23,082 bases of DNA from a virus. Position numbers and translations under genes: made by a program. The notes beneath the pieces were generated by a model. It did no database searches and had not been told where the DNA came from. It saw only the letters and a program-made list of their open reading frames with translations. The stretch lies in IMG/VR virus record IMGVR_UViG_3300050821_015826, positions 1-23,082 of that record, one strand, 5' to 3'. This document shows, one piece after another, positions 3,116 to 23,074 of the stretch. Numbering within the stretch: position 1 is the first letter of the stretch; each line of letters begins with the position of its first letter.

Positions 3116-3589
3116 ATGCCCACTCATACAGAAAAAACTTTATCTTGCGCTCGCGAAGGCGTTGCTCTTTGGAAATGGGCAAGCGAAACCGCCACTACAC
3201 TGGCGCAGTTAAGCAAGAACGAAAAACTCCCTATAGAAGTTAGGATGCTTCTTAACGGCCTCGCGACGACGGGTCTTCACCTTCAACCAAATAAATGTAT
3301 CTTCTATGAAATTGATTTGACAGAAGGTAACCGCGCAAAAGCGAATGAACGCCATCGCCGTTGGAGGGCGAACAAATCCGCAAAAATCGCAATGCCAACA
3401 TATCTCCCCTCGTCACAGGACGAGAACAAAGAAGCCTTCCAAATGTGGGATATGGGCGGTGGAACCAAGGAAACATACGAAGCTAAAGAAGCGCAAATTT
3501 TAAGCGCGATGAATTCCTACATTAAAAATGCGTCGAAAGACGTTAATTTTGATTTTATGGAACAATTAGTTAAATCCATAGGAAAGTGA
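3116..3589 (+). CDS. Hypothetical protein, first rightward gene
   Basis: The 157-aa product starts at the ATG at 3116, with AAGGA five bases before it; a GTG directly upstream (3113) is in frame but less well spaced. The protein is soluble, with a helical N-terminal half (ALWKWASETATTLAQLSKNE) and a basic patch near residues 75-95 (RAKANERHRRWRANKSAK), which could bind nucleic acid. I do not recognise a family. As the first gene behind the strong promoter it is probably expressed early. Its A+T content looks higher than that of genes further right. Confidence 0.8.
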   Translation: MPTHTEKTLSCAREGVALWKWASETATTLAQLSKNEKLPIEVRMLLNGLATTGLHLQPNKCIFYEIDLTEGNRAKANERHRRWRANKSAKIAMPTYLPSSQDENKEAFQMWDMGGGTKETYEAKEAQILSAMNSYIKNASKDVNFDFMEQLVKSIGK

Positions 3590-5241: not shown

Positions 5242-6528
5242 ATGGATGTTTCCAAGCTTACGCTTACCTTCTCGGACGAATTCTCCGGAACTTCCCTAAA
5301 TCCCATTTGGCGCACCGCCTATGGATGGTCTGGAGGAACCGGAAGAACTCTTTCCGGTAACGCCGAAGGCGAATACTATTGCGATCCAAACGTCCCTGTT
5401 GCCTCTTCCGGAACTCCCGGAATAAATCCCTTCACTTTCACAGGCAAATCTCTAATCATCACCGCCGCTCCATCAACCGACACCTCTTCCTCCGGAACGC
5501 GCGGCCTTCCCTATTCCTCCGGTATGCTTTCCACTTGGGATACTTTCGCCCAGCCCTTCGGTTATTGGGAAATTCGGTGCCGCCTCGGAACTGGAAGTGG
5601 TTTTTGGCCCGCCTTTTGGATGTTGCCTTCGGCCATAGTTTGGCCGTGGGAGATTGATGCATTTGAAATCTTTGGAGGGCCAAATCCAAACCACGAAGGC
5701 GGTCACTTCCTTATGCACACCGGGATTATCGGTGGAACTGGACAGCACACAAAAAGCATCGCCTCACAATGGAATACCGTTCCAAACGATCCTCTTGACG
5801 GAAAATTCCACACTTACGGCCTCAATTGGCAACTGGACTTTATCTCCTGGTACATGGACGGGGTTTTGGTAAATAAAACCCCCACCCCCCAGCAATTCAT
5901 CACTCCTAGTTATGTAATCGCCAACCTCGCGGTTGGCACCAATCAAAATCTCTCCTGGCCGAAAGCTCCTGCCGCAGGCGCAACCTGTGAAATGGAAATA
6001 GACTATATACGCATTTATTCCCGCTTCTACGACGCAACTCCCGCCATCTTCACAGGGGTTTCATCTCCCGATGGGATTGATACTTCTCCCGTAGGAGCCC
6101 TTACTTCCTCCGGCCCCGTGAAGGTTGGAACTTCAGCTGTAAGCGTCTTCGCCGCCACCCTAAACCTTCCCACCTTCACTACCCTTCCTCCCGCAACCTT
6201 TCAAATTACCATCGACGACGTTGCGGTTCCGGGAACCTACACCGCCACCGCCGATCAAACAAAAGGCACTTACCCCGCAATCTCAATCTCCCCCTTCCCC
6301 CTTTACGGCGGGAGAAAACTTGGCGTAAAATTCACCAACGCCTTTTACGCCCCACCGGATAATAGAATTCTCGTCGTGAAAAACCTCACTTTCGACTGCG
6401 GGAACGGCTATTCCGGAACCCTGGATCACACAAACTTAATCCTTTCGAAGGGAATAACCGTCACCGCTGACGGAACTATCCACATCGGCAGCAACGTGAC
6501 AGTGGAATTCACCCTACCTTCTATCTGA
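5242..6528 (+). CDS. GH16-family glycoside hydrolase with C-terminal carbohydrate-binding-like domain
   Basis: Residues 1-265 of this 428-aa protein match the GH16 (laminarinase/licheninase-like) beta-jellyroll: FSDEFSGTSLNPIWR near the start, then GYWEIRCRLGTGSGFWPAFW, then the active-site motif WEIDAFEIFG with E137, D139 and E142 as nucleophile, helper and acid/base. GH16 enzymes cut beta-1,3 or beta-1,4 glucans and galactans. The C-terminal 150 residues look like a beta-sandwich; VKFTNAFYAPPDNRILVVKN recalls calcium-dependent carbohydrate-binding modules such as CBM36/60, though this is only a resemblance. There is no signal peptide, so it would leave the cell at lysis or as part of the virion. 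A role as a depolymerase of host exopolysaccharide is likely. It sits among small genes, away from any tail gene seen here. Confidence 0.88.
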   Translation: MDVSKLTLTFSDEFSGTSLNPIWRTAYGWSGGTGRTLSGNAEGEYYCDPNVPVASSGTPGINPFTFTGKSLIITAAPSTDTSSSGTRGLPYSSGMLSTWDTFAQPFGYWEIRCRLGTGSGFWPAFWMLPSAIVWPWEIDAFEIFGGPNPNHEGGHFLMHTGIIGGTGQHTKSIASQWNTVPNDPLDGKFHTYGLNWQLDFISWYMDGVLVNKTPTPQQFITPSYVIANLAVGTNQNLSWPKAPAAGATCEMEIDYIRIYSRFYDATPAIFTGVSSPDGIDTSPVGALTSSGPVKVGTSAVSVFAATLNLPTFTTLPPATFQITIDDVAVPGTYTATADQTKGTYPAISISPFPLYGGRKLGVKFTNAFYAPPDNRILVVKNLTFDCGNGYSGTLDHTNLILSKGITVTADGTIHIGSNVTVEFTLPSI

Positions 6529-6539
6529 GGATCCTTCCC

Positions 6540-6701
6540 ATGCTCCGGTATCTTGAAGTCTCCGTTGGTCTTCTGATAATCTTCTGCGCAATTCAATTCA
6601 TTGTAGATGGGATTATTTGGGAAAAAGCCACCCGGAGCATGGTTCCTTCTGTTGATTTATTCAATTGCGCTTCACCGTGTATGTCGAAGGAAGTGAAATG
6701 A
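6540..6701 (+). CDS. Small membrane protein, 53 aa
   Basis: GAGGA, overlapping the stop of the hydrolase gene, serves as ribosome binding site for the ATG at 6540. The product (MLRYLEVSVGLLIIFCAIQF...) has one hydrophobic segment at about residues 7-22 and a short polar remainder with two Cys. Its stop overlaps the next start (ATGA at 6698), which supports real translation. Function unknown; a lysis accessory or membrane-modulating role is possible but unproven. Confidence 0.65.
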   Translation: MLRYLEVSVGLLIIFCAIQFIVDGIIWEKATRSMVPSVDLFNCASPCMSKEVK

Positions 6702-6886
6702 CCTATATCTTTCCGGACGATAACATCCATGAAGCTTTTGTGAATTTCTATCACGAGCCTGAAGGAACCTTCACCGGCATTCCTTGGAGGTTCCGCCGCG
6801 ATGCGGAAAACGCATCTTCGGAAGATAAAGATCTCCTTTACCGCATCCACGTAATTCCTAGGAGGAAGGGAAATGGGAAAGAATAA
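6698..6886 (+). CDS. Small hypothetical protein, 62 aa
   Basis: The start is fixed by an ATGA overlap with the stop of the 53-aa gene and by AAGGAAG upstream; a longer version from an upstream TTG is less likely. The protein (MTYIFPDDNIHEAFVNFYHE...) is soluble, with a basic end. Its last 14 bases overlap the next gene. No family recognised. Confidence 0.65.
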   Translation: MTYIFPDDNIHEAFVNFYHEPEGTFTGIPWRFRRDAENASSEDKDLLYRIHVIPRRKGNGKE

Positions 6887-7253
6887 GAGTAAACCTCCGG
6901 TTCTTCCTCCAAAAGAAAGTGTATTGAAGAAATATGAACCGAAGGTTCCGCCCGAACGGTGCGCGATTTCCTACACCGGTACAGCCCTTGCTGTCACGCT
7001 CCGCGAAGGTCAAACGGTGGAGATACCGGAAACGGTGGAGGGCCTCCGCGTACTCCGCAATATCCTCATGGCGCAACGCGCCGCACGCCTCGCGGGCTCT
7101 TGCCCAACCTTATGCAGCGACAGCTTCCCCACCCAACATCAAATCGACGCCTGGATGAAGCTTAAGAGAGAAAGTGAAGAAATGATTTCGCAAGAAAGGT
7201 TAGACTCCGTTCATCGAGATATCCTTGATGATCTAGAAGAAGTAGGATTTTGA
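6873..7253 (+). CDS. Hypothetical protein, 126 aa, with acidic EEVGF end
   Basis: AGGAGGAAGG provides a very strong ribosome binding site inside the previous gene. The N-terminus is basic and Pro-rich (MGKNKSKPPVLPPKES), the middle looks like a small beta domain (TALAVTLREGQTVEIPETVE), and the rest is helical. The last residues, DDLEEVGF, are a weaker version of the acidic DAGF tail found on three other proteins in this window. No domain is recognised. Confidence 0.75.
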   Translation: MGKNKSKPPVLPPKESVLKKYEPKVPPERCAISYTGTALAVTLREGQTVEIPETVEGLRVLRNILMAQRAARLAGSCPTLCSDSFPTQHQIDAWMKLKRESEEMISQERLDSVHRDILDDLEEVGF

Positions 7254-8768: not shown

Positions 8769-9122
8769 ATGAGCGTCCGTAACCGCTCCGCAGTGAAAGT
8801 CGGGCCTCTTTCCGCTCAAGCCTTTCTTCTCGCTCAAGCCAATACATGTTTCTATTGTACCAATATGCTTACACCTCACCGCTTCAAAGCAAAGTTCAAT
8901 GAATTCGGTTGGACCGTGGATCATGTAATTCCACGATCAATTATAAAAAGTAACAGCTTGAACAACATCGTCTTCTCATGTGACACTTGCAACAACTCAA
9001 AGCGTGACATCCTCCCCTCAAAAGAAACTCTTAGCCTTGTGGCAGATATGCACCGCCGCCGCAGGGAAATACTTAAAGAGTTGAAAAGAGAGTTAGAAGA
9101 AAGGCAGAAAAATGGCGGATAA
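8769..9122 (+). CDS. HNH endonuclease
   Basis: The 117-aa protein has a full HNH core: CFYC at 27-30, WTVDHVIPRS with D51-H52, N66 and CDTCNNSKRD at 71-80, the two CxxC pairs forming a structural zinc site. HNH enzymes nick or cut DNA; in phages they act as free-standing homing enzymes, in packaging or in defence. The C-terminus is a highly charged helix. It overlaps the helicase start by 11 bases. Its place between a structured RNA candidate and an intein-bearing helicase is suggestive of mobile-element activity, but it is outside both. Confidence 0.85.
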   Translation: MSVRNRSAVKVGPLSAQAFLLAQANTCFYCTNMLTPHRFKAKFNEFGWTVDHVIPRSIIKSNSLNNIVFSCDTCNNSKRDILPSKETLSLVADMHRRRREILKELKRELEERQKNGG

Positions 9123-11439
9123 AATTTGGACCCCCGAACAGGAGCTAGTCTTCAATGCAGCTACGAATGAAAAAACATCCCTCATTATCCAAGCTTACCC
9201 GGGGACCGGAAAAACTACTACCCTCGTGGAACTTGCGCAGCGCATCAAACAGACTACTTGCCTCGCTACGTCCTTCGGCACAAAAACCGTGGAGGAATTA
9301 CGGGAACGCCTTCCCTTGTGGATCGAAGTAAAAACAATGAATTCCGTGGGCCACTCCGCTTGGTGTTCGGCCGTGGGAGGACGATGTGAAGTTGATCGCG
9401 ATAAAATGTTTAACCTCGTCAAGAAGACCGGCTTACGTGACGACGATTTTCAGGCCGTGTATGCAATGGTCCGCCGCGCCCGACACGTCGGACTCGTCCC
9501 TGCTGATGCCCAAGCAATCAAACTCGTGGAAGATACAGAAGACAACTGGCGTGATCTTACTGACTTCGATCCGTCTCCTGAGCTTATCAAAATTGCAAGG
9601 AAAGTTTTGAAAGACTGCATCAACCTTTCCTATTCCCGGAGCATCGACTTTGACGATCAGATTTACATGAGTTCCCTTTTCGGAGGAATCTTCAGAAGAT
9701 TCAAACTCGTTCTCGTAGATGAAGCCCAAGATCTTTCGCTTCTCAACATCCGTCAAATTAAGCGAATGTCGGAAGACAGGATAATTGCGGTCGGCGATGA
9801 ATTCCAATGCCATCCACCAGGAACCATGATTAGAGTTCCGGATGGTTTCGGTGGAAATGAAAGAAACTGCAAACCAATAGAAAACATCAAAGAAGGAGAT
9901 GAAGTAACAAGTTATAATACTAAAACTTCTTTCTTTTCAGGTTGTCAACAGCAAGGCAGAAAAGTTCTTGTTAAAAAAGAATTTGATTTTGATGGCGATC
10001 TTGTAAGAATAAAAGCTGGAGAATATACCCAGCTTTGTACACCAGAGCATAGATGTTTAGTGAGAATGATAGATGCGCCTTATGTTTATGCTTTGTATTT
10101 AATGCAAAGAGGAAACGATTTTAGAGTAGGAATAGCGCAAATAACTTATAATCTCGGTTTCGGTCCTGGATTACGCGCTCGTCAGGAAAGTGCAGATGCT
10201 CTTTGGGTACTAAAAGTGTCCGGAAACAAAGCGCAAGCTTTAATTGACGAGGCCGTCACTTGCGTAAAATTTGGTTTGCCAGATACAATGTTTAAAAATA
10301 ATGGAAAGGCTTCAATGGACCAAAGATTTTTAGACGCGATCTGGGATGAAGTTGGTAATAACGAAGAAAGAGCTAAAATCTGCTTGAAATCTTTTGGTCG
10401 TATGTTTGAATTTCCGTTTTGGAAAAGACAAAGTGAATTACAAGACGGAAATTGGATAGGAAAAAGATCTTTTCTTATGCAAGCTTGCAATTTACTACCA
10501 AATTTAATGACAGTTAAAATTTTTAATGGAGATCCAAGAAATTCCGATTGGATAATTATAGATACGGAAAAAGTTCCTTACAAAGGAAAAGTACACGGAA
10601 TTGAAGTGCAGCCGAATGAAGGAAGAAGACTTTATGTGGCTGACGGAATAGTTACACACAACTCTATTTACGCTTTTCGTGGCGCAGATTCTAACAGTAT
10701 GCAATCGGTCCGTGGGTTGAAAAGCGAATGGAAAGATTTAACTCTTTCCGAAAGCTTCCGGTGCCCACAAAAGGTTGTCAGAAGGAGAAACACCTTCTTG
10801 CCTTTATTCCGCGCCGCTTCGGCGAATGCCGAAGGGACAATTTCCGAATTCCCTGGCCCCTGGTACTGGCATCAAATTCCTTCGGGAGGTTCAGTTGCTA
10901 TACTTTCGCGGAATAATGCACCTATCTATGCAATGGCAACGAAGCTACTCAGTTTACGAATTCCCTTTCAAATCCTCGGCCGAGAAGGCAACCGCCCCGT
11001 CGTTGCTCTTGCAAAGAAGATCCTTCCTAAGAATGGAGAACCGCACGAATTCATTGAGTCGGTCAACTCTTGGAAAGAAAATGAAACCCTCACAGCGGAG
11101 ACTTCTGGCAAGCACTCCCGACTGGAGTCAATTACAGACCGTGCTGAATGCCTCCTTAATATCATCGCCGAAATCTCTCCTACCTCCCGCGAGGAAGTAC
11201 TAAATGCTCTTGAAGAGATTTTTTCGGAGACGAATCCAAAAATTATTCTATCCACGGTTCACCGAGCAAAGGGGCTTGAATACGATACGGTCGTTCATCT
11301 TGATCCATGGCGAATTCCCAGTTTCTTCGCCTCTTCGGCTGACGCCCGTCAGCAAGAAGCCAACATCCTAAATGTATTGGAAACGAGGACTAAACTCCAC
11401 TTCATCACGGCAAATCTAAAACACTTCATGGGGAAGTAA
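9112..11439 (+). CDS. UvrD/PcrA-like superfamily 1 helicase interrupted by an intein
   Basis: The 775-aa precursor has Walker A AYPGTGKTTT (K34), motif II VDEAQD (203-207), motif III split as VGDEFQ / SIYAFRGAD around the intein (residues 233-517), the region ESFRCP for motif IV, motif V STVHRAKGLEYD and a motif VI-like ETRTK near the end. After splicing the helicase would be 490 aa, short for UvrD, with reduced 1B/2B subdomains. Enzymes of this family unwind DNA 3' to 5' using ATP and serve phage replication or recombination. The start overlaps the HNH gene by 11 bases. The unspliced protein should be inactive because motif III is broken. Confidence 0.9.
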   Translation: MADKIWTPEQELVFNAATNEKTSLIIQAYPGTGKTTTLVELAQRIKQTTCLATSFGTKTVEELRERLPLWIEVKTMNSVGHSAWCSAVGGRCEVDRDKMFNLVKKTGLRDDDFQAVYAMVRRARHVGLVPADAQAIKLVEDTEDNWRDLTDFDPSPELIKIARKVLKDCINLSYSRSIDFDDQIYMSSLFGGIFRRFKLVLVDEAQDLSLLNIRQIKRMSEDRIIAVGDEFQCHPPGTMIRVPDGFGGNERNCKPIENIKEGDEVTSYNTKTSFFSGCQQQGRKVLVKKEFDFDGDLVRIKAGEYTQLCTPEHRCLVRMIDAPYVYALYLMQRGNDFRVGIAQITYNLGFGPGLRARQESADALWVLKVSGNKAQALIDEAVTCVKFGLPDTMFKNNGKASMDQRFLDAIWDEVGNNEERAKICLKSFGRMFEFPFWKRQSELQDGNWIGKRSFLMQACNLLPNLMTVKIFNGDPRNSDWIIIDTEKVPYKGKVHGIEVQPNEGRRLYVADGIVTHNSIYAFRGADSNSMQSVRGLKSEWKDLTLSESFRCPQKVVRRRNTFLPLFRAASANAEGTISEFPGPWYWHQIPSGGSVAILSRNNAPIYAMATKLLSLRIPFQILGREGNRPVVALAKKILPKNGEPHEFIESVNSWKENETLTAETSGKHSRLESITDRAECLLNIIAEISPTSREEVLNALEEIFSETNPKIILSTVHRAKGLEYDTVVHLDPWRIPSFFASSADARQQEANILNVLETRTKLHFITANLKHFMGK
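9808..10662 (+). mobile_element. Intein in helicase motif III, with GIY-YIG-like insert
   Basis: The 285-aa insert begins with Cys233 (CHPPGTMIRV), has block B TPEH at 310-313, block F around KVHGIEVQ, and ends VTHN before Ser518, so all splicing residues are in place (C1, TxxH, His-Asn, Ser+1). It lies exactly between Gln and Ser of the VGDxxQ/SIYxFRGAD motif. There is no LAGLIDADG motif. Instead residues 324-390 resemble a GIY-YIG-type fold (T5orf172/MUG113-like): YALYLMQRGNDFRVGIAQ, then R355/R357, then E380. The DNA is visibly richer in A+T and in AGA arginine codons than the flanking helicase, a sign of recent arrival. The catalytic state of the insert is uncertain. Confidence 0.9.
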
Positions 11440-11886: not shown

Positions 11887-11963
11887 TTAGCATAATTTCT
11901 TGGGCTGTCGTTTGGCTAATCTTTGTCGCCATCTGCGTCTTCATGATGGGGAAGGTGAAGTGA
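11883..11963 (+). CDS. 26-residue single-span membrane peptide
   Basis: This tiny gene starts in an ATGA overlap with the 64-aa gene, and the next gene's ATG follows its TGA directly (TGAATGA). Its product is almost entirely one hydrophobic helix (MISIISWAVVWLIFVAIC...) ending in a basic GKVK. The two tight junctions make real translation likely. Such peptides can act as holin-like, antiholin or membrane-stress modulators, but the function here is unknown. Confidence 0.6.
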   Translation: MISIISWAVVWLIFVAICVFMMGKVK

Positions 11964-12377
11964 ATGAATCCACCTTTCCACTCTCCACTCCGGAAAACTA
12001 TCGCCAACGGTTCACCGGGATACCCTTCCGACAATCCGATCGCAGCCTTGCCGCCTATTTCGATTTGGCCGGAAAAGAACGGATGGCGATTATCCCTGTG
12101 GCTTATTATCGATACGAATCGAAGCGCCGTAGAACACAAGAAGTTTTTATCCGGAGACAAAGTTCATGAAGAAATCCACAATATTTTGCTCGATTATTTT
12201 ACTGACCCAGAAAGAGCGATGCTATGGCACTTCGGTTGGGGAGGTATTAAGAGCCTCCCGCGCACCTACACTGTTGAGGCAGAAGTGTCCTCCCGCACGC
12301 CCCTACCTGCGCCCCGTAAGGCTGCGGAGGCTGCCCCCCGGTATGCTATAGGTGACGACGAGGACGCAGGGTTCTAG
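11964..12377 (+). CDS. Hypothetical protein with acidic DAGF C-terminal tail
   Basis: The 137-aa protein has a folded-looking part (about residues 25-105, with several Trp in ISIWPEKNGWRLSLWLIIDT and AMLWHFGWGG), then a Pro/Ala-rich linker (RTPLPAPRKAAEAAPRYAIG) and the end GDDEDAGF. Folded domain, flexible linker and acidic tip closing in Phe is the layout of bacterial SSB and phage T7 gp2.5, though the core is not recognisably an OB fold. Nearly identical tips end the proteins at 1898 and 12611. The start follows the preceding TGA directly. It is the last gene before the second rightward promoter. Confidence 0.78.
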   Translation: MNPPFHSPLRKTIANGSPGYPSDNPIAALPPISIWPEKNGWRLSLWLIIDTNRSAVEHKKFLSGDKVHEEIHNILLDYFTDPERAMLWHFGWGGIKSLPRTYTVEAEVSSRTPLPAPRKAAEAAPRYAIGDDEDAGF

Positions 12378-12392
12378 GGCGCATTTCCCCGC

Positions 12393-12421
12393 TTGACGGG
12401 GGGCCTACAGTGGGCCATGAT
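12393..12421 (+). promoter_or_regulatory. Second rightward promoter
   Basis: TTGACG (12393-12398), 17 bp and CATGAT (12416-12421). The CTTGAC start and GGGC before the -10 match the promoter at 3055-3083. It lies in a gap of about 75 bp in front of a probable ribbon-helix-helix gene, so autoregulation is possible. The -10 is a weak match. Confidence 0.55.
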
Positions 12422-12452
12422 GTCCACCCTTCCCCCTTCGGGCTCCCCTAGC

Positions 12453-12614
12453 ATGATCCGTCGTCATATCGTTTTCGAGGAAGAAGACCTGTCCGCGCTA
12501 CGCGACCGTTTCGGTCCTACAATTACGGTCAGCCTCGCGGTTCGGTTATTGGTTAAAGAATATATTCGTGAGCCTTCCAAGTTTGAGCTTTCCCGCTATG
12601 AGGTTAAGAGATGA
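12453..12614 (+). CDS. Probable ribbon-helix-helix DNA-binding protein
   Basis: From the ATG at 12453 the 53-aa product reads RRHIVFEEEDLSALRDRFGP followed by a second helix ITVSLAVRLLVKEYIRE. One strand and two helices of these lengths fit the ribbon-helix-helix (Arc/CopG) fold of small phage and plasmid repressors. The start is uncertain: ATGs at 12417 and 12420 would add 11-12 residues but overlap the predicted -10 element, and none of the starts has a good ribosome binding site. The stop overlaps the next ATG (ATGA). It may control the promoter just upstream. Confidence 0.6.
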   Translation: MIRRHIVFEEEDLSALRDRFGPTITVSLAVRLLVKEYIREPSKFELSRYEVKR

Positions 12615-12910
12615 CGGAAGAACTAGAAACCGAAAATCCCTTCGTCAACATCACAACAAACACCATTGATCTTCTCTTCAATATCCCACCGCCAGATCTA
12701 ACCCGCCCGAAAATAGATGAAATCGTCGCAGTTATGCGAGAGCTTCGCGGGCGACGCCTCGTCGCCGAAGCGTCGGGAGAGAAAGCCCCGTGCGTGAAGA
12801 AGGAACCCGCGCCGAAGGCTGCAAAGCCTGAGAAAATCTCCCGCACCCCTTCCCAAGTGACCGCTATCACTTCAATCGAAGTCTCTGACGAAGAGGATGC
12901 TGGATTTTGA
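12611..12910 (+). CDS. Hypothetical protein with acidic DAGF C-terminal tail
   Basis: The 99-aa product has a short N-terminal part (about 1-55, ending in a helix KIDEIVAVMRELRGRRLVAE), a Lys/Pro/Ala-rich linker (KKEPAPKAAKPEKISRTP) and the end SDEEDAGF. Before the tip, VTAITSIEV resembles VTATTVTHT in the 235-aa protein at 1898, so the shared module may be about 18 residues. No domain is recognised. ATGA coupling joins it to the regulator upstream, and its TGA overlaps the next ATG. Confidence 0.78.
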   Translation: MTEELETENPFVNITTNTIDLLFNIPPPDLTRPKIDEIVAVMRELRGRRLVAEASGEKAPCVKKEPAPKAAKPEKISRTPSQVTAITSIEVSDEEDAGF

Positions 12911-13134
12911 TGATTCAAACCAATGAAAATAAACTCGCCCGCCATTCCGCCAAGATGCTCGCTAAGTGGGGTATCCGCCATCAACCTCGGCCGAAGGTCT
13001 TTTTCTCTCCCCCGAAGACTTGGGAGGAAATTAAGAAGATTCGTGTTGCGAACTCTGGAATAAATCGAGGAAAGCCGAAGAACACTAAACTTCGTGAGCA
13101 AATTGAGGCTTTATTGAAAGCTTTTAGAATATGA
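12910..13134 (+). CDS. Small basic hypothetical protein, 74 aa
   Basis: The ATG at 12910 shares a base with the previous stop (TGATG). The protein is basic (ARHSAKMLAKWGIRHQPRPK; SGINRGKPKNTKLREQIEAL) and could bind DNA or RNA. No known motif is visible. It overlaps the nuclease gene by four bases, so the two are translated together, and a role in recombination is a reasonable guess only. Confidence 0.65.
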   Translation: MIQTNENKLARHSAKMLAKWGIRHQPRPKVFFSPPKTWEEIKKIRVANSGINRGKPKNTKLREQIEALLKAFRI

Positions 13135-14120
13135 ACGACTTCCTTAACTTCAACCCTGATCTTCCCGAAAGAGTATCTTTCGTGGGGACTCTCCAAATAG
13201 CTTGGGACAGCACGTCAATTGGCTACCTTAAAGAATGTCCGTATAAGTACTATCTCGCAATCGTCGCGGGAATTGTTCCAATGGGAGAGTCGGTTCATCT
13301 TAAATTTGGACTCCTGTACCACGGCGCGCTGGAAGAATATGAAAAAGCGCGGGCGCGTGGCGAAACGCGCGATGATGCTATTGCCTCAGCGGTACACTAT
13401 TGTCTTGTGAATTCTTGGGAACCGCGGCTAAATCGTGGATGGGTATCCGGCCATGAAACTAAGAACCGCTTCACTTTGGTACGGACGGTCGTCGATTATT
13501 TGGACACCTTTAACGACCAAACAGATTCTCTTCGAACGATCCTCCTTCCCAACGGCAAACCGGCAACTGAGTTATCCTTCAACTTTAAAACGAACTACGT
13601 CACTCCATTCGGCTATCCGTATAAACTCTGCGGCCACTTGGATAAAGTCGTCAAAGAGAGAGATGACTTTGAAAACCCCGAAGCGGACCTCCACATTCTT
13701 GACCACAAAACCACTTCCATGCCGTTAAACACCGGTTACTGGAATCAATACAACCCCAACAATCAAGTCTCTCATTATTACCATTCCGGTCAAATAATCT
13801 TCAAAACCCGCGTGCGCGACTTCATTATTGATGCGGCGCGCATCACCGCGAATGCCGATGAATTCGAACGCCGTTCGATTCCCCGAACCGAGTCCCAGCT
13901 CGAAGAGTGGTATAAAGATCTCGGCTGTTGGATCGCGATGGCGGAAGCCTACTCCCAGCAAAATTATTGGCCGAAGAATGAAAAGTCCTGCGTGAAGGGT
14001 TTCATTACTTGTGAATATATTGGGATTTGCCAAAATTGCCCAAGCACAAGGAAGCTTTGGTCCGGAAGTGGCTTCGGTAAGAGAAGTTGGGATCCAATGC
14101 GTATTAGAGGTGAAGAATGA
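13131..14120 (+). CDS. PD-(D/E)XK nuclease, Cas4/RecB-like with Fe-S cysteines
   Basis: The 329-aa protein follows the PDDEXK_1 (RecB/Cas4-type) plan: an early Cys (C36, KECPYKYY), GLLYHGALEEY with H64, LCGHLDKVV with D171, LHILDHKTTS with D191 and K193, the QVSHYY motif with Q212, and a closing cysteine group C287, C294, C300, C303. One early and three or four late cysteines is the pattern that holds a 4Fe-4S cluster in Cas4 and AddB. Such enzymes resect DNA ends and, in phages, feed single strands to recombinases. The Sak4-like ATPase and SSB candidate lie a few genes downstream, which fits. Confidence 0.85.
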   Translation: MNDFLNFNPDLPERVSFVGTLQIAWDSTSIGYLKECPYKYYLAIVAGIVPMGESVHLKFGLLYHGALEEYEKARARGETRDDAIASAVHYCLVNSWEPRLNRGWVSGHETKNRFTLVRTVVDYLDTFNDQTDSLRTILLPNGKPATELSFNFKTNYVTPFGYPYKLCGHLDKVVKERDDFENPEADLHILDHKTTSMPLNTGYWNQYNPNNQVSHYYHSGQIIFKTRVRDFIIDAARITANADEFERRSIPRTESQLEEWYKDLGCWIAMAEAYSQQNYWPKNEKSCVKGFITCEYIGICQNCPSTRKLWSGSGFGKRSWDPMRIRGEE

Positions 14121-14503: not shown

Positions 14504-14769
14504 TGATAGTCATAGATAAAATTGACGGAAAAGAATGCGTTGTCATTCTTGAACCAGCTTCTTCTGATGAAGCTGGGATGACTTTCAATAGGGTGCTCAC
14601 ATTAACTCCCGCCAATGAAGAGAATATATGGGACGATCTTGTAACTCTTCGAATGTTTGGGCTTGAAGTGACAATTCATGCGGGTGAATTAGAAAAAGCT
14701 GTAAAACAGGCAGAGGTGCTTGGCGGGAAAAAAAGAAATGAAGTTTTGCAAAAGATGGCAATGCTATGA
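14503..14769 (+). CDS. Hypothetical protein, 88 aa
   Basis: The ATG at 14503 is chosen over a GTG at 14500; GGGGA lies just upstream. The product begins with beta-like segments (MIVIDKIDGKECVVILEP) and ends in a helix (GELEKAVKQAEVLGGKKRNE). No motif is recognised. Its DNA is more A+T-rich than the flanking genes. The stop overlaps the Sak4-like gene by four bases. Confidence 0.65.
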   Translation: MIVIDKIDGKECVVILEPASSDEAGMTFNRVLTLTPANEENIWDDLVTLRMFGLEVTIHAGELEKAVKQAEVLGGKKRNEVLQKMAML

Positions 14770-15632
14770 CAGCTCTCGCAGATCTAACCTCCACCGACCG
14801 GGTAAAACTTATGATCCTCGGCCACTCCGGAAGCGGTAAAACCGGAGGCTTAGCTTCTTTAGCTTCTTCCGGCTACCGCCTTTGGATACTCGACTTTGAA
14901 GATGGCGTCCCCATCCTAAAATCTGTCCTTCAAGAACACTACTCCGGAAAAGGTATTGCCAATATTGACGTTCTCCAAATCTCCAACGACTTCAAAGTCG
15001 CGGCTGATAAACTCATTCCAGAAACTAAAGGCTGGAATAAATTCAACAACGCCTTGTCCTCCTGGGATAAGCCTCGCGTTCCTGGCGCTCCATTTTGGGC
15101 TTATTCTCTTGGGGATAATGATGTTATTGTCCTCGACACTCTATCTGGCCTATGTGATCTCGTTCGCGATTACGTCCTCGGACTTAATAGCAGGCTAGAA
15201 TTAGGAGCCAGAATTCAAGACTACAAACAAATGCAGGAACTCTTGGATTTCGCCTTTCGCTCCCTGGCGGGAGACAAGTGTAAAGCCCACTTAATAGTAA
15301 ACGCTCACGTCCAAGATTACCGCGAGGGCGGGGAGACAGTTGATGATCCTAAAAATCCGTCGCAGAAAACTATCGTCGGTGGTAAAGATGTTGGGTTTGC
15401 CCGATCTTCCGGGAAAACGTTTTCCCGTTCCTGTGGACGTTACTTCAACAACGTCCTATATCTTGAGGAAGAGCCCGGACTTCGCGGCTCCGAGAGAATT
15501 TATAACACCCAGCCGAAAGGAATTGTCCGTGTAAAAACTTCATCCCCTTACACCGCAAAACGTTCCTATAAAATTGAAAATGGCCTCGCGGAATTCTTTC
15601 GCGACGTGCGTGGAGGGAAAACTCCGGAATGA
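14766..15632 (+). CDS. Sak4-like RecA-fold ATPase (AAA_24)
   Basis: The 288-aa protein has Walker A GHSGSGKT at 19-26 and Walker B DVIVLDTLSG ending near D124, with a RecA-type core (LWILDFEDG after the P-loop). This is the organisation of the phage AAA_24/Sak4 family, single-strand annealing or RecA-like recombinases. The segment FARSSGKTFSRSCGRYFNNV fits the family's C-terminal half. It follows the nuclease by four genes and precedes the SSB candidate, matching the common phage order nuclease-Sak4-SSB. Start by ATGA overlap. Confidence 0.8.
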   Translation: MTALADLTSTDRVKLMILGHSGSGKTGGLASLASSGYRLWILDFEDGVPILKSVLQEHYSGKGIANIDVLQISNDFKVAADKLIPETKGWNKFNNALSSWDKPRVPGAPFWAYSLGDNDVIVLDTLSGLCDLVRDYVLGLNSRLELGARIQDYKQMQELLDFAFRSLAGDKCKAHLIVNAHVQDYREGGETVDDPKNPSQKTIVGGKDVGFARSSGKTFSRSCGRYFNNVLYLEEEPGLRGSERIYNTQPKGIVRVKTSSPYTAKRSYKIENGLAEFFRDVRGGKTPE

Positions 15633-15811: not shown

Positions 15812-16276
15812 ATGACTGAGAAGAGTGTAGAAGATTTCCTTGGTGCAAAGATGGGGACGGTTCCTAAGCCTCCGGTCCTTCCGGCGGGAACCTATCTCGG
15901 AACCATCACGAAGCATGAATTCGTGGATAAGAAGTTCGGTGCGGAAATGACGAAAGCCCTTCGCATCAACATCAAGGTGGCGCAGGCTGAAGCGGACGTA
16001 GAGGAAGAATTGCTGGCGGCGATTGACATGACTCGCCAGTACGTCCAACGCGACTACGCCCTTGACGCCAACGGCCACCGTGCGTTTGACCGCCTCTGCG
16101 TTACTTTGTTCGGCGAGAACGCCGAAGGTGCGGGCCTTGGGGAGTATCTTCCCCTTCTTGTCGGCAAGTCTGTAGTCTTCAAAGTAACCAACACTCGCGG
16201 TTCCAAGCCCGGCGACGATGGAGAATTCCCCATCTTCGTAAACGTGCAGGAGTTGAAGGGACTTCCGCAGGAGTAA
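15812..16276 (+). CDS. Putative ssDNA-binding protein (DUF669-like)
   Basis: The 154-aa protein has the layout LPAGTYLGTITKHEFVDKKF, a long middle with LRINIKVAQAE, and LPLLVGKSVVFKVTNTRG near the end, alternating strands that fit an OB-like fold and recall the DUF669/SSB-like proteins that follow Sak4-type genes in many phages. The assignment rests on this pattern and on position. It lacks an acidic Phe-ended tail, unlike E. coli SSB. GGAG precedes the ATG. A terminator follows the stop, closing this transcription unit. Confidence 0.55.
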   Translation: MTEKSVEDFLGAKMGTVPKPPVLPAGTYLGTITKHEFVDKKFGAEMTKALRINIKVAQAEADVEEELLAAIDMTRQYVQRDYALDANGHRAFDRLCVTLFGENAEGAGLGEYLPLLVGKSVVFKVTNTRGSKPGDDGEFPIFVNVQELKGLPQE

Positions 16277-16859: not shown

Positions 16860-17176
16860 AACTCCTCGAAGAATACTCCCATTTCCACAAGAAAGTAGAA
16901 AACACTCCCCATCACCTGACCCATTTCTCTCGCTCTTTCAACCGATCTCTTCACGCCGCTATTGGCATGTCGGGCGAAGCGTCGGAAGTCCTAGATCTTA
17001 TAAAGAAAACCCTGTACGGGAAGCAGGTTCCTCTTACGAGGGATACTCTTCTCTCCGAACTCGGTGATATCTATTGGTACTTCCACTTGATGATGGACGC
17101 CAACGGGTTGACGCTCAATGAAGTCCTTTCCTTCAACATCGCGAAGCTCTCTAAGCGGTATGAGGAAAAGCTTTGA
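16856..17176 (+). CDS. MazG-like nucleotide pyrophosphohydrolase
   Basis: The 106-aa helical protein has the MazG metal-binding pattern: GEASEVLD with E41 and E44, then LLSELGDIYWYF with E68 and D71. MazG-type enzymes hydrolyse nucleoside triphosphates to monophosphate and pyrophosphate, removing damaged or excess dNTPs, and phage versions may also affect host ppGpp. The ATG at 16856 (ATGA overlap, GAGAGAGG upstream) is preferred to the in-frame ATG at 16832. It couples to the UDG-exonuclease gene through another overlap. Confidence 0.85.
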   Translation: MKLLEEYSHFHKKVENTPHHLTHFSRSFNRSLHAAIGMSGEASEVLDLIKKTLYGKQVPLTRDTLLSELGDIYWYFHLMMDANGLTLNEVLSFNIAKLSKRYEEKL

Positions 17177-18213
17177 CCGTTCCCGGCGTCGGCCCCAAGC
17201 CGTGCAAGATTATGTTCGTTGCCGAAGCTCCCGGAAAGGAAGAAGATGAAGCCGAACTCCCTCTCGTCGGTTCCTCCGGTCGTCTCTTCAACCAAACCCT
17301 TCAATTGGTCGGCATCTCCCGCCCTTCCTGCTACATAACCAATGTCATTCAGGAACGCCCGCCTAATAATGATATCCTCAAATTCTGCGTCGGCAAGAAA
17401 GACCTCCCGCCGACTTATCTTTATTCGCCTGTGGCTAAAGGGAAATACTTGCACCCCGACTATCTATCTTCTTTGCCGAGACTCGCTAGGGAAATTCGTG
17501 AAGCCGATCCCAATGTCATCGTCGCAATGGGCAATCTCTCTACTTGGGCGCTCTTGGGGGCTGTCGGTATTTCAAAGATACGTGGTGCCGTTGCTGCTTG
17601 TTCGCTTGTTTCTGGTAAGAAGGTTATCCCTACGTACCATCCGGCTTTTGTTCTGCGCGCTTGGCACGAAAGAATAACCTTCAATATGGACCTTCAGAAA
17701 GCTCTTCGGGAGAGTGAGTTTCCGGAAATCCGAAGAGAAGAACGAGTTGTCGCCATTGAACCAGACCTTCAAGATATCCGAAATTGGATAACGGAGAACC
17801 ATGATGCTGAAATTATTTCCGCGGACATTGAAACAGCGGATGGCTTTATCACTTGTATCTCTTTTGCCGCTTCGCGATCCAGTTCAATTGTCGTTCCTTT
17901 TCGCGATATGCGCAAATCTGACGGTAATTATTGGGCTGATATTGATAGCGAGATTTGTGCATGGAAGTTGGTAGAAGAAATCCTTTGCCTTCCGGGCCAG
18001 AAGCTTTTCCAGAATGGTTGCTACGATTTACAGTACTTGTTCCGCACGGGCCTTACAGTCAGAAACTGCACCGCCGATACGATGCTGTTGCACCATTCTC
18101 TTTACCCCGAGATGAAGAAAAGCCTTGGCTACATGGGTAGTTTATACTGCAATGAAGCTTCCTGGAAATTGATGCACCGCAGGAGCGGTGAGGAACTGAA
18201 GAAGGAGGAATAA
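17173..18213 (+). CDS. Uracil-DNA glycosylase domain fused to a partial PolA 3'-5' exonuclease
   Basis: Residues 10-190 follow the family 4/SPO1-type UDG plan: FVAEAPGKEEDEAELPLVG, YITNVIQERPP, VIVAMGN and the closing TYHPAFVLR (H156). The N-terminal CxxC that binds the Fe-S cluster in family 4 enzymes is missing. Residues 210-346 are the start of a PolA-type proofreading exonuclease: ISADIET (D218, E220; Exo I) and FQNGCYDLQYL (N281, D285; Exo II). The protein then ends, before Exo III, which is found at the start of the polymerase at 18640. UDG fused to Pol A is known in phage SPO1; here it is cut into two genes. It starts at TTG, overlapping the MazG stop (TTGA). Confidence 0.85.
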   Translation: MTVPGVGPKPCKIMFVAEAPGKEEDEAELPLVGSSGRLFNQTLQLVGISRPSCYITNVIQERPPNNDILKFCVGKKDLPPTYLYSPVAKGKYLHPDYLSSLPRLAREIREADPNVIVAMGNLSTWALLGAVGISKIRGAVAACSLVSGKKVIPTYHPAFVLRAWHERITFNMDLQKALRESEFPEIRREERVVAIEPDLQDIRNWITENHDAEIISADIETADGFITCISFAASRSSSIVVPFRDMRKSDGNYWADIDSEICAWKLVEEILCLPGQKLFQNGCYDLQYLFRTGLTVRNCTADTMLLHHSLYPEMKKSLGYMGSLYCNEASWKLMHRRSGEELKKEE

Positions 18214-18389: not shown

Positions 18390-18649
18390 TGAGATACCTA
18401 GTAGTCCTTACTAGCTGCACTAACAATGAAAGTGACATAGTTATTATTGAGTCTGGTTGTTCCCTTCGACAGTTAGCGCAGGATTTAGTGGACCATAAAG
18501 TAATACTCTACACCAGAGTTTACCAAAAATTCATTCCACCAAAAAAAGAAGATGGACCTTATGCCGCAGGAAAGTATGAAGAGAGTACAAAATCCATTAT
18601 CCTCACAACTTCTAATATAGTTTCTATAGAAGAAAAAGAATGCGACTAA
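18389..18649 (+). CDS. Hypothetical protein, 86 aa, between polymerase halves
   Basis: The ATG overlaps the previous stop (TAATG) and the last 10 bases overlap the polymerase gene. The product starts with a strand (MRYLVVLTSC) and looks like a small alpha/beta domain. Its DNA is clearly more A+T-rich than the genes on both sides, which suggests it arrived separately. No motif is recognised. Confidence 0.68.
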   Translation: MRYLVVLTSCTNNESDIVIIESGCSLRQLAQDLVDHKVILYTRVYQKFIPPKKEDGPYAAGKYEESTKSIILTTSNIVSIEEKECD

Positions 18650-20172
18650 TTCAAACCTCCACCCTCAATCCAAAAAATCTCTCCCCCTTCGACGAACTCC
18701 AAATCTACAATGGGCTGGACTCCCCCATAACCCTTGAAATTTACGAAAAACTTCCTCGCAAAGATAACTCCACCTATCTTTTTGAAATCGCTCTCCAAGC
18801 GCCTATCCTTGAAATGATGATGAGAGGGATAAAAGTTGATGTACCAGCCAGAACAGCGGCGAGAGCAGAAGTCCTCGCCAAGATTGTATCCTACGAGGAA
18901 CTTCTCGACTACTTTGGTGAAAGGTTGGAGTTACTGCCAGTCAAGAAGGTTAAACGTGACGCGGGCGAGCACGTCCCTAAGTTTCTTAACTCCCGTTCCG
19001 GGCCTCAACTGAAGTCCTTTTTCTATGACTATCTCGGAATTCCGCCCATTAAAGTCTACGCGGCGGGCGACGTTTCCCTCCCAATGGACGAGGCGGTACT
19101 TACTAAGCTCAAGGAATACACCTTGGCCCGCCCTGTGGCCGTGCTTGTACTTGAAATCCGCAGGTTACAGGAGGAATATAAGAGGTTGAAGAGTGACATA
19201 TCTTCCGACGGCCGCGCCCACACTACTTACTCCATTGGAGTTACTACAACAGGAAGACTTGCTTCATCCAGTTGGATTGATGATACGTCTCAAAACCTGC
19301 AAAACGTCGCCGAGGAATTACGACATGTGTATGTGGCCGATCCCGGCTGGAAGATGGGCTCTATCGACAAAGAGCAAGCGGAAAGCAGGATAGTCGGCTG
19401 GATTTGTGGAACTCTCTTCGGTGATTGGAAATACCTAGACTTTTGCGAGAACCGCGATGTACACACTTATGTTGTTCGGTTGGTTTGGCCTGAGTTGCCT
19501 TGGACTGGTGATGATAAATCCGACAAGAAACTCGCTTCTGATAAGAAGCACCCCCTTGCTACTCATGGTCTTTCTCTTAGAGATAAATGTAAGCGTATTG
19601 GGCATGGCGCTAATTATTATGGCACTAACCGCACTCTAGCTGCAGAAACCTTTCTTCCGGAACGGAAGGTCGGCGAAGCCGTTGAGATTTATTTCGATGA
19701 ATTCAAGGGAATTCAAAAGTGGCAAAATTACGTAATCGACCGGATAAAAAACGAGGAACCCATTATTACTCCTTTTGGTTGGTCGCGTCGTTTTCTAAAA
19801 CATCCAAAATCATCCTCAACGTGGCGGGAAGCTATCGCCCACGGCCCCCAAAGTGCTATCGCACATATGACCAATTTAGGGTTGTTCAACGTTTGGTCTT
19901 TCTTCGGCCATCGCATCCGTCTTCTGTTGCAGAACCACGATAACATCGTATTCCTCTTCCGGGAAGATGACGACGAAGATTACATCATGTCTAACGCCAT
20001 GAAACAATTTGAAGTACCGCTGCGTTGCAGCGCCAGAACAATGACAATCCCCGGCGACGCCTACGTCGGATATAATTGGGGCTACAGGAAAGAAGTAAAG
20101 GATGACGCAGGAAACATCACCTCCATCCTCAACCCTTCCGGCCTCGTCCATTGGGAAGGGAGATTGGATTGA
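18640..20172 (+). CDS. Family A DNA polymerase, polymerase domain with Exo III remnant
   Basis: The 510-aa protein begins with the end of a proofreading domain, YNGLD at 23-27 (the YxxxD of Exo III), and then the polymerase core. Motif A is IDKEQAESR with D243; motif B is R314-DKC-K318-RIG-H322-GANYYG; motif C is NHDNIVF with D434. Compared with E. coli Pol I, the Phe at 762 is His and the Glu after the motif C Asp is Asn; both catalytic Asp residues remain. It synthesises phage DNA and must pair with the product at 17173 to have a complete exonuclease site. Its ATG lies inside the previous gene, with a weak GAAGAAAA site upstream. Confidence 0.92.
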   Translation: MRLIQTSTLNPKNLSPFDELQIYNGLDSPITLEIYEKLPRKDNSTYLFEIALQAPILEMMMRGIKVDVPARTAARAEVLAKIVSYEELLDYFGERLELLPVKKVKRDAGEHVPKFLNSRSGPQLKSFFYDYLGIPPIKVYAAGDVSLPMDEAVLTKLKEYTLARPVAVLVLEIRRLQEEYKRLKSDISSDGRAHTTYSIGVTTTGRLASSSWIDDTSQNLQNVAEELRHVYVADPGWKMGSIDKEQAESRIVGWICGTLFGDWKYLDFCENRDVHTYVVRLVWPELPWTGDDKSDKKLASDKKHPLATHGLSLRDKCKRIGHGANYYGTNRTLAAETFLPERKVGEAVEIYFDEFKGIQKWQNYVIDRIKNEEPIITPFGWSRRFLKHPKSSSTWREAIAHGPQSAIAHMTNLGLFNVWSFFGHRIRLLLQNHDNIVFLFREDDDEDYIMSNAMKQFEVPLRCSARTMTIPGDAYVGYNWGYRKEVKDDAGNITSILNPSGLVHWEGRLD

Positions 20173-21364
20173 GAACTTTCTCGCCGCAACGAAAGACGTT
20201 AACTCTCCAGAGATCTTTCGCCGCTGGGCGGCGATTTCCACCCTTTCCGGGGCGCTTGAACGACGCACTTACACCTATTTCGGCTCAGGGAAAGTCTATC
20301 CAAACACATTTGTTGTCCTTGTTGCGCCGCCACGAGTCGGTAAGACCCAAGCTCTCAAGCAAGTTACGCATCTTTGGAGAAGTACAAAGGTACTTCATGT
20401 CGCACCCGACTCAATATCTTCGGCAGCCCTCATTGATTGTTTGGAGTCTACATATCGGGCGTTACCTGTGGTGCAGACAGGGGAAGTTCTCGAATATCAC
20501 TCCCTCCAAATCTGTCAAGATGAAATGGGGGTTCTTCTTCCGGAGTACGCACCGGGGACACTTAGTTTGGTGTCCGCTCTTTATGACTGCAAGGAACGCT
20601 TCACAGAAGAAAAGCGCACAAATAAGCTGAAGAAAGACATAATAAATCCTATCATTTCCGTCGCCGTGGGTGCAACTCCAGGATACCTCAAAGACACTCT
20701 CCCAGAAGTCGCCTGGGACCAAGGCTTTATGGCGCGGATGATAATCATCTATCAAAAGGAAGGGCCGAATTATAGTATCCGCGGAAAATTTAAACGTCCT
20801 CGTCAACTCGGCCTCTTTCCTTCCGAAATGAAAGATTATCTTAAAGAATTGTGTGACCTTGTTGGAGCCTTCCAATGGAGCGAAGAAGCGGAAGAAGCGA
20901 TTGCCCGGTGGCACGAGCAAGGATTTGCACCTGCGCCGACGCATCCACGCCTTGCAAATTACTGCAACGAAAGGATGATCCACGTTATGAAACTTTCAAT
21001 GATATCTTCAATATCGCGTGGGACTTCCCTTCGTATTACCTTAAAAGATTTCGAGCGCGCACGCGCCTGGATGATTGAAGCCGAAGGCACTATGCCCGAC
21101 GTATTCGCGGCCATGGGCGGCAAGGGGGATAAGAATATAATCCTTGACTTGCACCAGTTTTTGCTTAATATTCAGAAGCGCAGCGGCACACCCCGCGTCC
21201 GCGATCAACTAATGTACCACCACCTTTCCGGTCAAGTTCAAAGTGAGCGCATTCCAAAACTTGTTGAGCAGGCTTCTCGGATGGGCTTATTGAAGATCGT
21301 CCCTCCGAATTTCGTGGAAGTACTGGAACCGTCCGGTACTGTTTATAAGGAGATGGAAGAATGA
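20102..21364 (+). CDS. DUF3987-like phage replication ATPase
   Basis: The 420-aa protein has WIENFLAATKDVNSPEIFRR near the start, Walker A APPRVGKT at 75-82 and a Walker B-like ICQDEMG with D140-E141, the order seen in phage DUF3987-type proteins linked to helicase/primase roles. The C-terminal 90 residues look like a winged helix (VRDQLMYHHLSGQVQSERIP). The only in-frame ATG lies at 20102, so the gene overlaps the polymerase end by 71 bases; a rare ATT at 20150 is the alternative. The product may load or drive the replisome with the polymerase upstream. Confidence 0.8.
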   Translation: MTQETSPPSSTLPASSIGKGDWIENFLAATKDVNSPEIFRRWAAISTLSGALERRTYTYFGSGKVYPNTFVVLVAPPRVGKTQALKQVTHLWRSTKVLHVAPDSISSAALIDCLESTYRALPVVQTGEVLEYHSLQICQDEMGVLLPEYAPGTLSLVSALYDCKERFTEEKRTNKLKKDIINPIISVAVGATPGYLKDTLPEVAWDQGFMARMIIIYQKEGPNYSIRGKFKRPRQLGLFPSEMKDYLKELCDLVGAFQWSEEAEEAIARWHEQGFAPAPTHPRLANYCNERMIHVMKLSMISSISRGTSLRITLKDFERARAWMIEAEGTMPDVFAAMGGKGDKNIILDLHQFLLNIQKRSGTPRVRDQLMYHHLSGQVQSERIPKLVEQASRMGLLKIVPPNFVEVLEPSGTVYKEMEE

Positions 21365-22264: not shown

Positions 22265-22684
22265 ATGGTAGCGGCAGTAGTTTGGCAAAGTGACTTCCAA
22301 TTCACCGCAAGAAATCGAACCTTCGCGGTTGTCGTCGGGCCGGGTAGAAACGTCGGTGTTGAAGGAACTGCCGTTATCCTGGCGGAAAACGTTTCCGGTG
22401 CCGGATGGACAAATATCGGCGATCTTCTAGTAAACCTCGGGGACGGCAGTCTCTCCGGTTTCCCTGGCGCTGACGGAACGGTGAAGGGATTCTTGCTTTA
22501 TCTTTGCAAAATCCTAAACAACACTTTCCTCAGCATTCTCCCTCCAATCACCGTCACCCCACCGCCATCTTTAACTGCTATCCAACGGATAACTATCGGA
22601 ATCCAGAAAGGGATGGTGACACCAACTGTCAATCCAGACGGAACTCTTTCCTTCACCGTTAGTTCTACATTTGTAGAACCATAG
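22265..22684 (+). CDS. Hypothetical protein, first of a tandem paralogue pair
   Basis: The 139-aa product has AGGAG before its ATG. It shares clear segments with the next gene: FTARNRTFAVVVGPG near the start, a hydrophobic middle ending in ILPP, TAIQR, and DGTLSFTVSSTFV at the end. It looks mostly beta, with a hydrophobic helix in the middle. Function unknown; a repeated small structural or surface protein is likely. No signal peptide is seen. Confidence 0.75.
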   Translation: MVAAVVWQSDFQFTARNRTFAVVVGPGRNVGVEGTAVILAENVSGAGWTNIGDLLVNLGDGSLSGFPGADGTVKGFLLYLCKILNNTFLSILPPITVTPPPSLTAIQRITIGIQKGMVTPTVNPDGTLSFTVSSTFVEP

Positions 22685-22693
22685 GAGAATCCG

Positions 22694-23074
22694 ATGTCAA
22701 TTACAGTAGTATCTGGTGATTACGTCTTCACTGCGCGGACGAGGCAGTTTGCTGTCGTTCTCGCTCCGGGGCAGTCAACTGCCGCTAACGGAACTCTATC
22801 TGTCATCCTCGCGGAATTGATTTCCGGCGTCTATACTTGGACGGCCGATCTAGTTCCGAACGTCAACGCTGTAACTCTTCCTACAGGAGCCAGCCCTATG
22901 ACCGCTTGGCTGAATACTTTCCTCGCCACGCTTCAAGCGGAAATGTTGACGCTTCTTCCCCCAACGCCCGCGACGGCGATCCAGAACGCCATCCGCACCG
23001 GAATCAACCCTCCGGCCACCAGCGCCACGGACGGCACTCTCTCCTTCACGGTGAAGTCCACCTTCGTCGGCTAA
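22694..23074 (+). CDS. Hypothetical protein, second of a tandem paralogue pair
   Basis: The 126-aa product aligns with the previous one along its length: FTARTRQFAVVLAPG, VILAELISG, LLPPTPATAIQ and DGTLSFTVKSTFV. Sequence identity is low outside these blocks, so the duplication is old. AGGAG precedes the ATG at 22694. The stop lies eight bases from the window end, so further copies downstream cannot be excluded. Confidence 0.75.
   Translation: MSITVVSGDYVFTARTRQFAVVLAPGQSTAANGTLSVILAELISGVYTWTADLVPNVNAVTLPTGASPMTAWLNTFLATLQAEMLTLLPPTPATAIQNAIRTGINPPATSATDGTLSFTVKSTFVG

Follow-up and report, generated by a model that had tools for sequence, protein, structure and literature searches.

Why should unrelated proteins encoded by a single phage end in the same acidic peptide? 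The question arises from a virus record of 23,082 bases, which was analysed over its whole length and is referred to here as the window; a simple codon-usage gene caller assigned 44 proteins to it. An initial annotation had pointed out that three of its proteins close with (D/E)EDAGF on otherwise different sequences, and the ORF translations bear this out. EEDAGF ends the ORF at 1898-2605 on the minus strand (tail and stop codon at 1898-1918) and the ORF at 12611-12910 on the plus strand (12890-12910), and DEDAGF ends the ORF at 11964-12377, also on the plus strand (12357-12377). All three ORFs pass as coding by their coding scores. The coding pattern for EDAGF followed by a stop codon occurs three times in the window and not once in 100 dinucleotide shuffles. 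Proteins ending in GF account for four of the 44 called in the window, compared to 2 of 1829 in related phages. When all viral contigs were searched for the literal EEDAGF pattern, four matches were obtained, at most one of which ends a called protein, and none was found in the related loci. The shared tail in the window is real. Judged by sequence comparison, the bodies that carry it are non-homologous: two belong to different families and the third, the 1898 protein, is without detectable relative. The codons for the terminal Ala-Gly-Phe are GCG GGC TTT, GCA GGG TTC, and GCT GGA TTT, Ala and Gly each being encoded by three different codons. Such synonymous differences speak for the earlier proposal that the tail is selected at the protein level and is not a copied DNA repeat. 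A VTA-T match between the 1898 and 12611 proteins, also noted at that time, is a minor feature.

Several replication-related genes are encoded on the plus strand of the window. These are an SF1 helicase (UvrD/PcrA-like) that contains an intein-like insert (9112-11439), a PD-(D/E)XK nuclease of the RecB/Cas4-like type (13131-14120), which is found 3′ of the 12611 gene with one small ORF in between, an AAA_24 (Sak4-like) ATPase (14766-15632), an SSB-like protein assigned by position and alignment with no Pfam match (15812-16276), a uracil-DNA glycosylase (UDG) domain protein with, by eye, an exonuclease-like C-terminal part (17173-18213), a DNA polymerase of Family A (18640-20172; not to be confused with the small-protein family A defined below), and a DUF3987 protein (20102-21364). 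Except for the nuclease, all of these are candidates for a common partner of the tails; the helicase does not carry the tail and the SSB-like protein has no acidic tail.

Some further features of the window were observed. The helicase insert of about 285 aa (C...HN, with S as the next residue) lies within the conserved GDxxQ-SIYAFRGA block and is missing in two relatives that were compared, and a gene for a free-standing HNH endonuclease (8769-9122) is located directly upstream of the helicase gene. A glycosyl hydrolase family 16 protein (5242-6528, Pfam E 6e-17) is encoded amid small phage genes, and a DUF932 protein (397-1386 on the minus strand, E 2e-47) is encoded near the 1898 gene. The adjacent proteins at 22265-22684 and 22694-23074 have similar C-terminal sequences (DGTLSFTV-STFV) and are probably tandem paralogues.

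No close DNA relative of the window was found in the phage collection searched. Direct homologue searches returned no match for the 12611 protein and no relative of the 1898 protein, and for this reason distant relatives were gathered via polymerase and UDG alignments, complemented by Caulobacter phage Kuura and ctMlz233. Many of the contigs from these relatives are fragments, and their genes were likewise called by a simple codon-usage caller.

The 12611 protein (99 aa) was found to belong to a family, here called family A, whose members have about 60-115 aa and, in related phages, are usually encoded immediately 5′ of the RecB-like nuclease gene. The 12611 protein consists of a short helical hairpin, a K/P/A-rich linker, and the tail. 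The family A profile was built without the last 12 residues, so that the tail was excluded from it. This tail-less profile identified family A at 43 loci, some of them near-duplicates, and nearly all members carry a tail, for example LSLDDLGL, LNLEDLGF, MTIEDLGL, NINLDELGL, APKDMDF, PPTDMEF, KAADVEF, or EEDAGF. When the profile was built without the window, it recovered the 12611 protein at E = 3e-10, which confirmed gene and frame. At locus L015, family A and the nuclease form a natural in-frame tandem, and in an AlphaFold model read through the stop codon the body is a confidently predicted helical hairpin; linker and tail have low confidence, consistent with disorder.

The 11964 protein (137 aa) represents a second family (family C), which the corresponding tail-less profile identified at 15 loci, with a tail in all 15. 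The gene is often found behind the helicase and elsewhere near the UDG or polymerase. Since a window-free profile recovers the 11964 protein (E = 9e-16), its reading frame is confirmed. Its start codon is uncertain because a second ORF in another frame (11900-12169) overlaps the first half of the gene, and homology backs the protein from about residue 22 on. AlphaFold predicts a beta-beta-beta-alpha-alpha domain (residues 32-90, pLDDT about 89-96), for which a fold-match search gave nothing convincing, and a C-terminal stretch of low confidence. The pLDDT of 47-66 for residues 101-137 agrees with the flexible linkers that had been proposed to precede the tails.

It became evident from these families that the tail differs between phages and tends to be matched within each of them. 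The matching tests were devised during the analysis and not set beforehand, and their permutation p-values are approximate as the loci are related by descent. The comparison of families A and C is the cleanest test, as the tail played no part in selecting either family. In the ten non-redundant genomes holding both families, the mean A-C tail similarity is 28.5 within a genome and 14.9 between genomes (z 5.7, p 5e-6). The result persists when the window is removed (p 3e-5), and for the residues that immediately precede the tail the effect is weak (p 0.02). A first matching test on 19 genomes had given a p-value of about 2e-8. When the family A tail is compared to every other protein, the best match within the same genome scores higher than that in foreign genomes (z 8.1, 26 non-redundant loci; z 7.3 with the window removed).

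Matched tails are illustrated by LTIEDLGL/MTIEDLGL/ITIGDLSL at locus L100, ATAGDLGL/ASAGDLGL at L140, LKLSDIGL/KSLSDIGL at L091, APKDLDF/APKDMDF at L024, and LSLADLGL/ISLADLGL at L154. At L125, a basic tail, KRRKL, is found on four proteins (3147-3476, 5614-6021, 6230-6391, and 6542-6751), whereas the tails of its relatives are acidic. In lambda, P22, and T7, the highest-scoring pairs of unrelated proteins reach 17-22, compared to 28-36 in the best loci here. A convincing second carrier was not found at L016, L079, L093, and L133, nor at L005 in the automatic test; this is partly attributable to fragmentary contigs and the crude gene caller. With respect to the 12611 and 11964 proteins, the initial annotation had considered the case that homologues lack the tail; the homologues carry other, genome-matched versions of it, which supports a phage-specific peptide common to several small proteins. 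A further conserved family with tail-like ends (family D, about 160-230 aa, 32 matches, e.g. L100:4458-5000 and L110:2975-3448) was considered as a carrier family and was rejected, as it shows no co-variation with family A (p 0.31).

Two further proteins of the window are relevant here. The 1898 protein (235 aa, coding score 34.7) ends in ...TSAPEEDAGF and was not detectably a member of another family, family B; its identical tail suggests that it belongs to the carriers. The protein at 6873-7253 on the plus strand (126 aa) ends in LDDLEEVGF, the translation confirming the looser EEVGF ending reported before, and fits a wider motif, [DE][DE]-hydrophobic-G-[LF]. It is a probable fourth carrier.

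We also asked which proteins carry tails and which do not. A strict tail pattern was found in one of 451 conserved replication proteins (SSB-like proteins 0 of 57, helicases 0 of 21), while a looser pattern matches 11% of the small proteins but 0-5% of core and large ones. Therefore, the carriers are accessory proteins. Several tails run on past the motif (KALGLVED, DDLLKDIDLNF) and many relatives end in Leu, so that in general no free Phe is needed at the end. At L039/L040:779-1777, the RecB-like nuclease itself has a tail-like end (EINIKDLM), which is unusual among the nucleases seen. SSB-like ends, DDDIPF or DDIPF, were observed in related phages at L084:69-1367, L039:2086-2334, and L031:1746-2132, one of these being a 432-aa protein at the helicase position.

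Attempts to single out a hub among the phage proteins by a charge-mirror test, by mirror-tree, and by the AlphaFold tandem did not point to any one of them. When the charge reversal of L125 was compared to the core proteins, no clear hub emerged; the L125 nuclease is unusually acidic compared to the other members of its family (z -1.9). Tail similarity and core-protein similarity are weakly correlated (rho up to 0.25, for DUF3987 and SSB). In the L015 tandem model the tail is undocked, with a pLDDT below 50.

We consider it rather probable that the tail is a genome-specific C-terminal docking motif, carried by several accessory proteins and recognized by one co-evolving, probably phage-encoded hub. 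The tail would be a short linear motif that caps a flexible linker; the carriers would include family A, encoded near the nuclease, and family C, whose genes often follow that of the helicase, together with proteins peculiar to single genomes, such as those at 1898 and 6873. Every tail of one phage would fit one pocket of one partner, so that the carriers join the same complex. Co-evolution of partner and tails would let the tail vary between phages (LSLDDLGL, LNLEDLGF, APKDMDF, EEDAGF) while tending to match within each. As the motif shifts between phages and is matched within them, the partner probably varies along with it, and a phage-encoded protein is likelier than a conserved host protein. 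Most likely, it is a conserved replication protein of the phage that has no tail (the polymerase, the DUF3987 protein, the SSB-like protein, the Sak4-like ATPase, or the UDG, in no firm order), and docking would serve DNA replication or recombination. That there is a single hub, that it is of phage origin, and that it acts in replication or recombination is what we infer from the tails. The initial interpretation is, as a whole, partly supported. More tentatively, hub and clients may share a phage-specific recognition code. The tag would change in all of them together during phage divergence, at L125 even with reversed charge, and the clients would thereby join the replication/recombination complex of their own phage but be kept out of one built by a co-infecting rival.

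Other explanations have to be weighed against a phage-encoded hub. The tails might imitate host SSB and bind to an SSB-Ct-like pocket of a host protein (e.g. RecO, ExoI, PriA, primase, or polymerase subunits). Their acidic residues and terminal hydrophobic residue resemble the DDDIPF hexapeptide of SSB-Ct (PMC5872125), and a few proteins from related loci end in DDDIPF or close variants. However, SSB-Ct is highly conserved in bacteria while the tails vary by phage and one is basic, and those tails that extend past the motif need no free terminal Phe, so that we regard host mimicry as unlikely. It is quite unlikely that the tails serve as tags for degradation or for an unfoldase, by which a host protease such as ClpXP, with or without an adaptor, clears a set of early proteins. 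ClpX signals are indeed found among short C-terminal tags, namely LPF (Streptococcus mutans SSB), LAA, and RRKKAI (MuA) (PMC5143411), the last of which is resembled by KRRKL from L125. Most tails, including those of the window, are acidic and unlike LAA or RRKKAI, though, some have further residues after them, and their change from phage to phage would demand an equally fast-changing host recognition.

Two explanations manage without any separate hub. The tails might interact among themselves or with domains of their own carriers, resulting in self-association, condensates, or a DNA-mimicking auto-inhibition. For T7 gp2.5, the acidic tail and ssDNA are reported to compete for the same gp2.5 surface (in a work cited by PMC5686142), and here K-rich linkers are found in the same chain as acidic tails. 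But the bodies of family A, family C, and the 1898 protein are unrelated, and auto-inhibition would not require their tails to be nearly identical; the basic shared tail in L125 speaks against simple DNA mimicry. We consider self-binding distinctly improbable. Finally, the tail could be a functionless DNA module that was recently copied between genes by recombination. The same codon is used at 40 of 76 shared tail residues where 28.7 are expected (nine loci), which is slightly above expectation. In the window, however, the Ala and Gly codons are all different, and matched tails have been kept by two families over ten non-redundant genomes where neutral copies would decay, which makes recent copying highly improbable.

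If docking on a common hub applies, it would tie small early proteins, so far uncharacterised, of a large environmental phage group to one machine without homology among them, and their last ten residues would provide a simple way to find further members. The concerted tail change between phages would represent a natural experiment in peptide-pocket co-evolution. The idea is testable, as the arrangement is also found in Caulobacter phage Kuura, which is in culture (PMC9959647). The Kuura tails are LNIDDLFSE on a 108-aa protein and LSIDDLLSTL on a 221-aa protein. A prior description of genome-matched tails was not found in the open-access literature, which does not prove its absence.

The closest known systems differ from these tails in several respects. 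In T7, the acidic tails of gp4 dock on basic patches of the gp5 polymerase (PMC12593628), and the gp2.5 tail has been implicated in binding polymerase and primase-helicase (PMC5686142). The T7 record NC_001604 gives ...ADEDGDF and ...SNDTDF, which are acidic and end in D-x-D-F or D-F. As in the window with EEDAGF and DEDAGF, unrelated proteins of one phage have an acidic C-terminal tail with an aromatic end. A family A polymerase is encoded in the window as well, and docking on it is a candidate interaction. However, the T7 carriers are an SSB and a helicase, while small accessory proteins carry the tails here. The motif here is hydrophobic-acidic, may be followed by further residues, and changes between phages in step across the carriers; the tail match is 35 here and 16 for gp2.5/gp4.

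Another similarity is to the beta-clamp binding motif, QLxLF, which is represented by QLVLGL at the C-terminus of Pol IV. There too, one short hydrophobic motif on many unrelated proteins leads to one hub, and several tails here end in LGL. Yet the Qxx[LM]xF/QLxLF core is missing, the A and C tails have, by eye, no Gln at the corresponding position, and the tails have an acidic centre and change between phages. No clamp gene was recognized among the annotated genes of the window.

Like the tails, the SSB-Ct (DDDIPF) ends a disordered linker with acidic residues and a hydrophobic one. It has one bearer and many partners, whereas there are many bearers and probably one hub here, and it is conserved, whereas these tails are genome-specific. 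The bearers are not OB-fold SSBs, family C being predicted as beta-beta-beta-alpha-alpha and family A as a helical hairpin, and D-D-x-[IL]-P-F is not seen in EEDAGF, DLGL, DMDF, and the like. The parallel to SSB drawn in the initial annotation holds for the mechanism but not beyond it, the phage's own SSB-like protein being without such a tail. The tails may work like those of T7 gp2.5 and gp4 or like SSB-Ct, yet they lack defining features of both.
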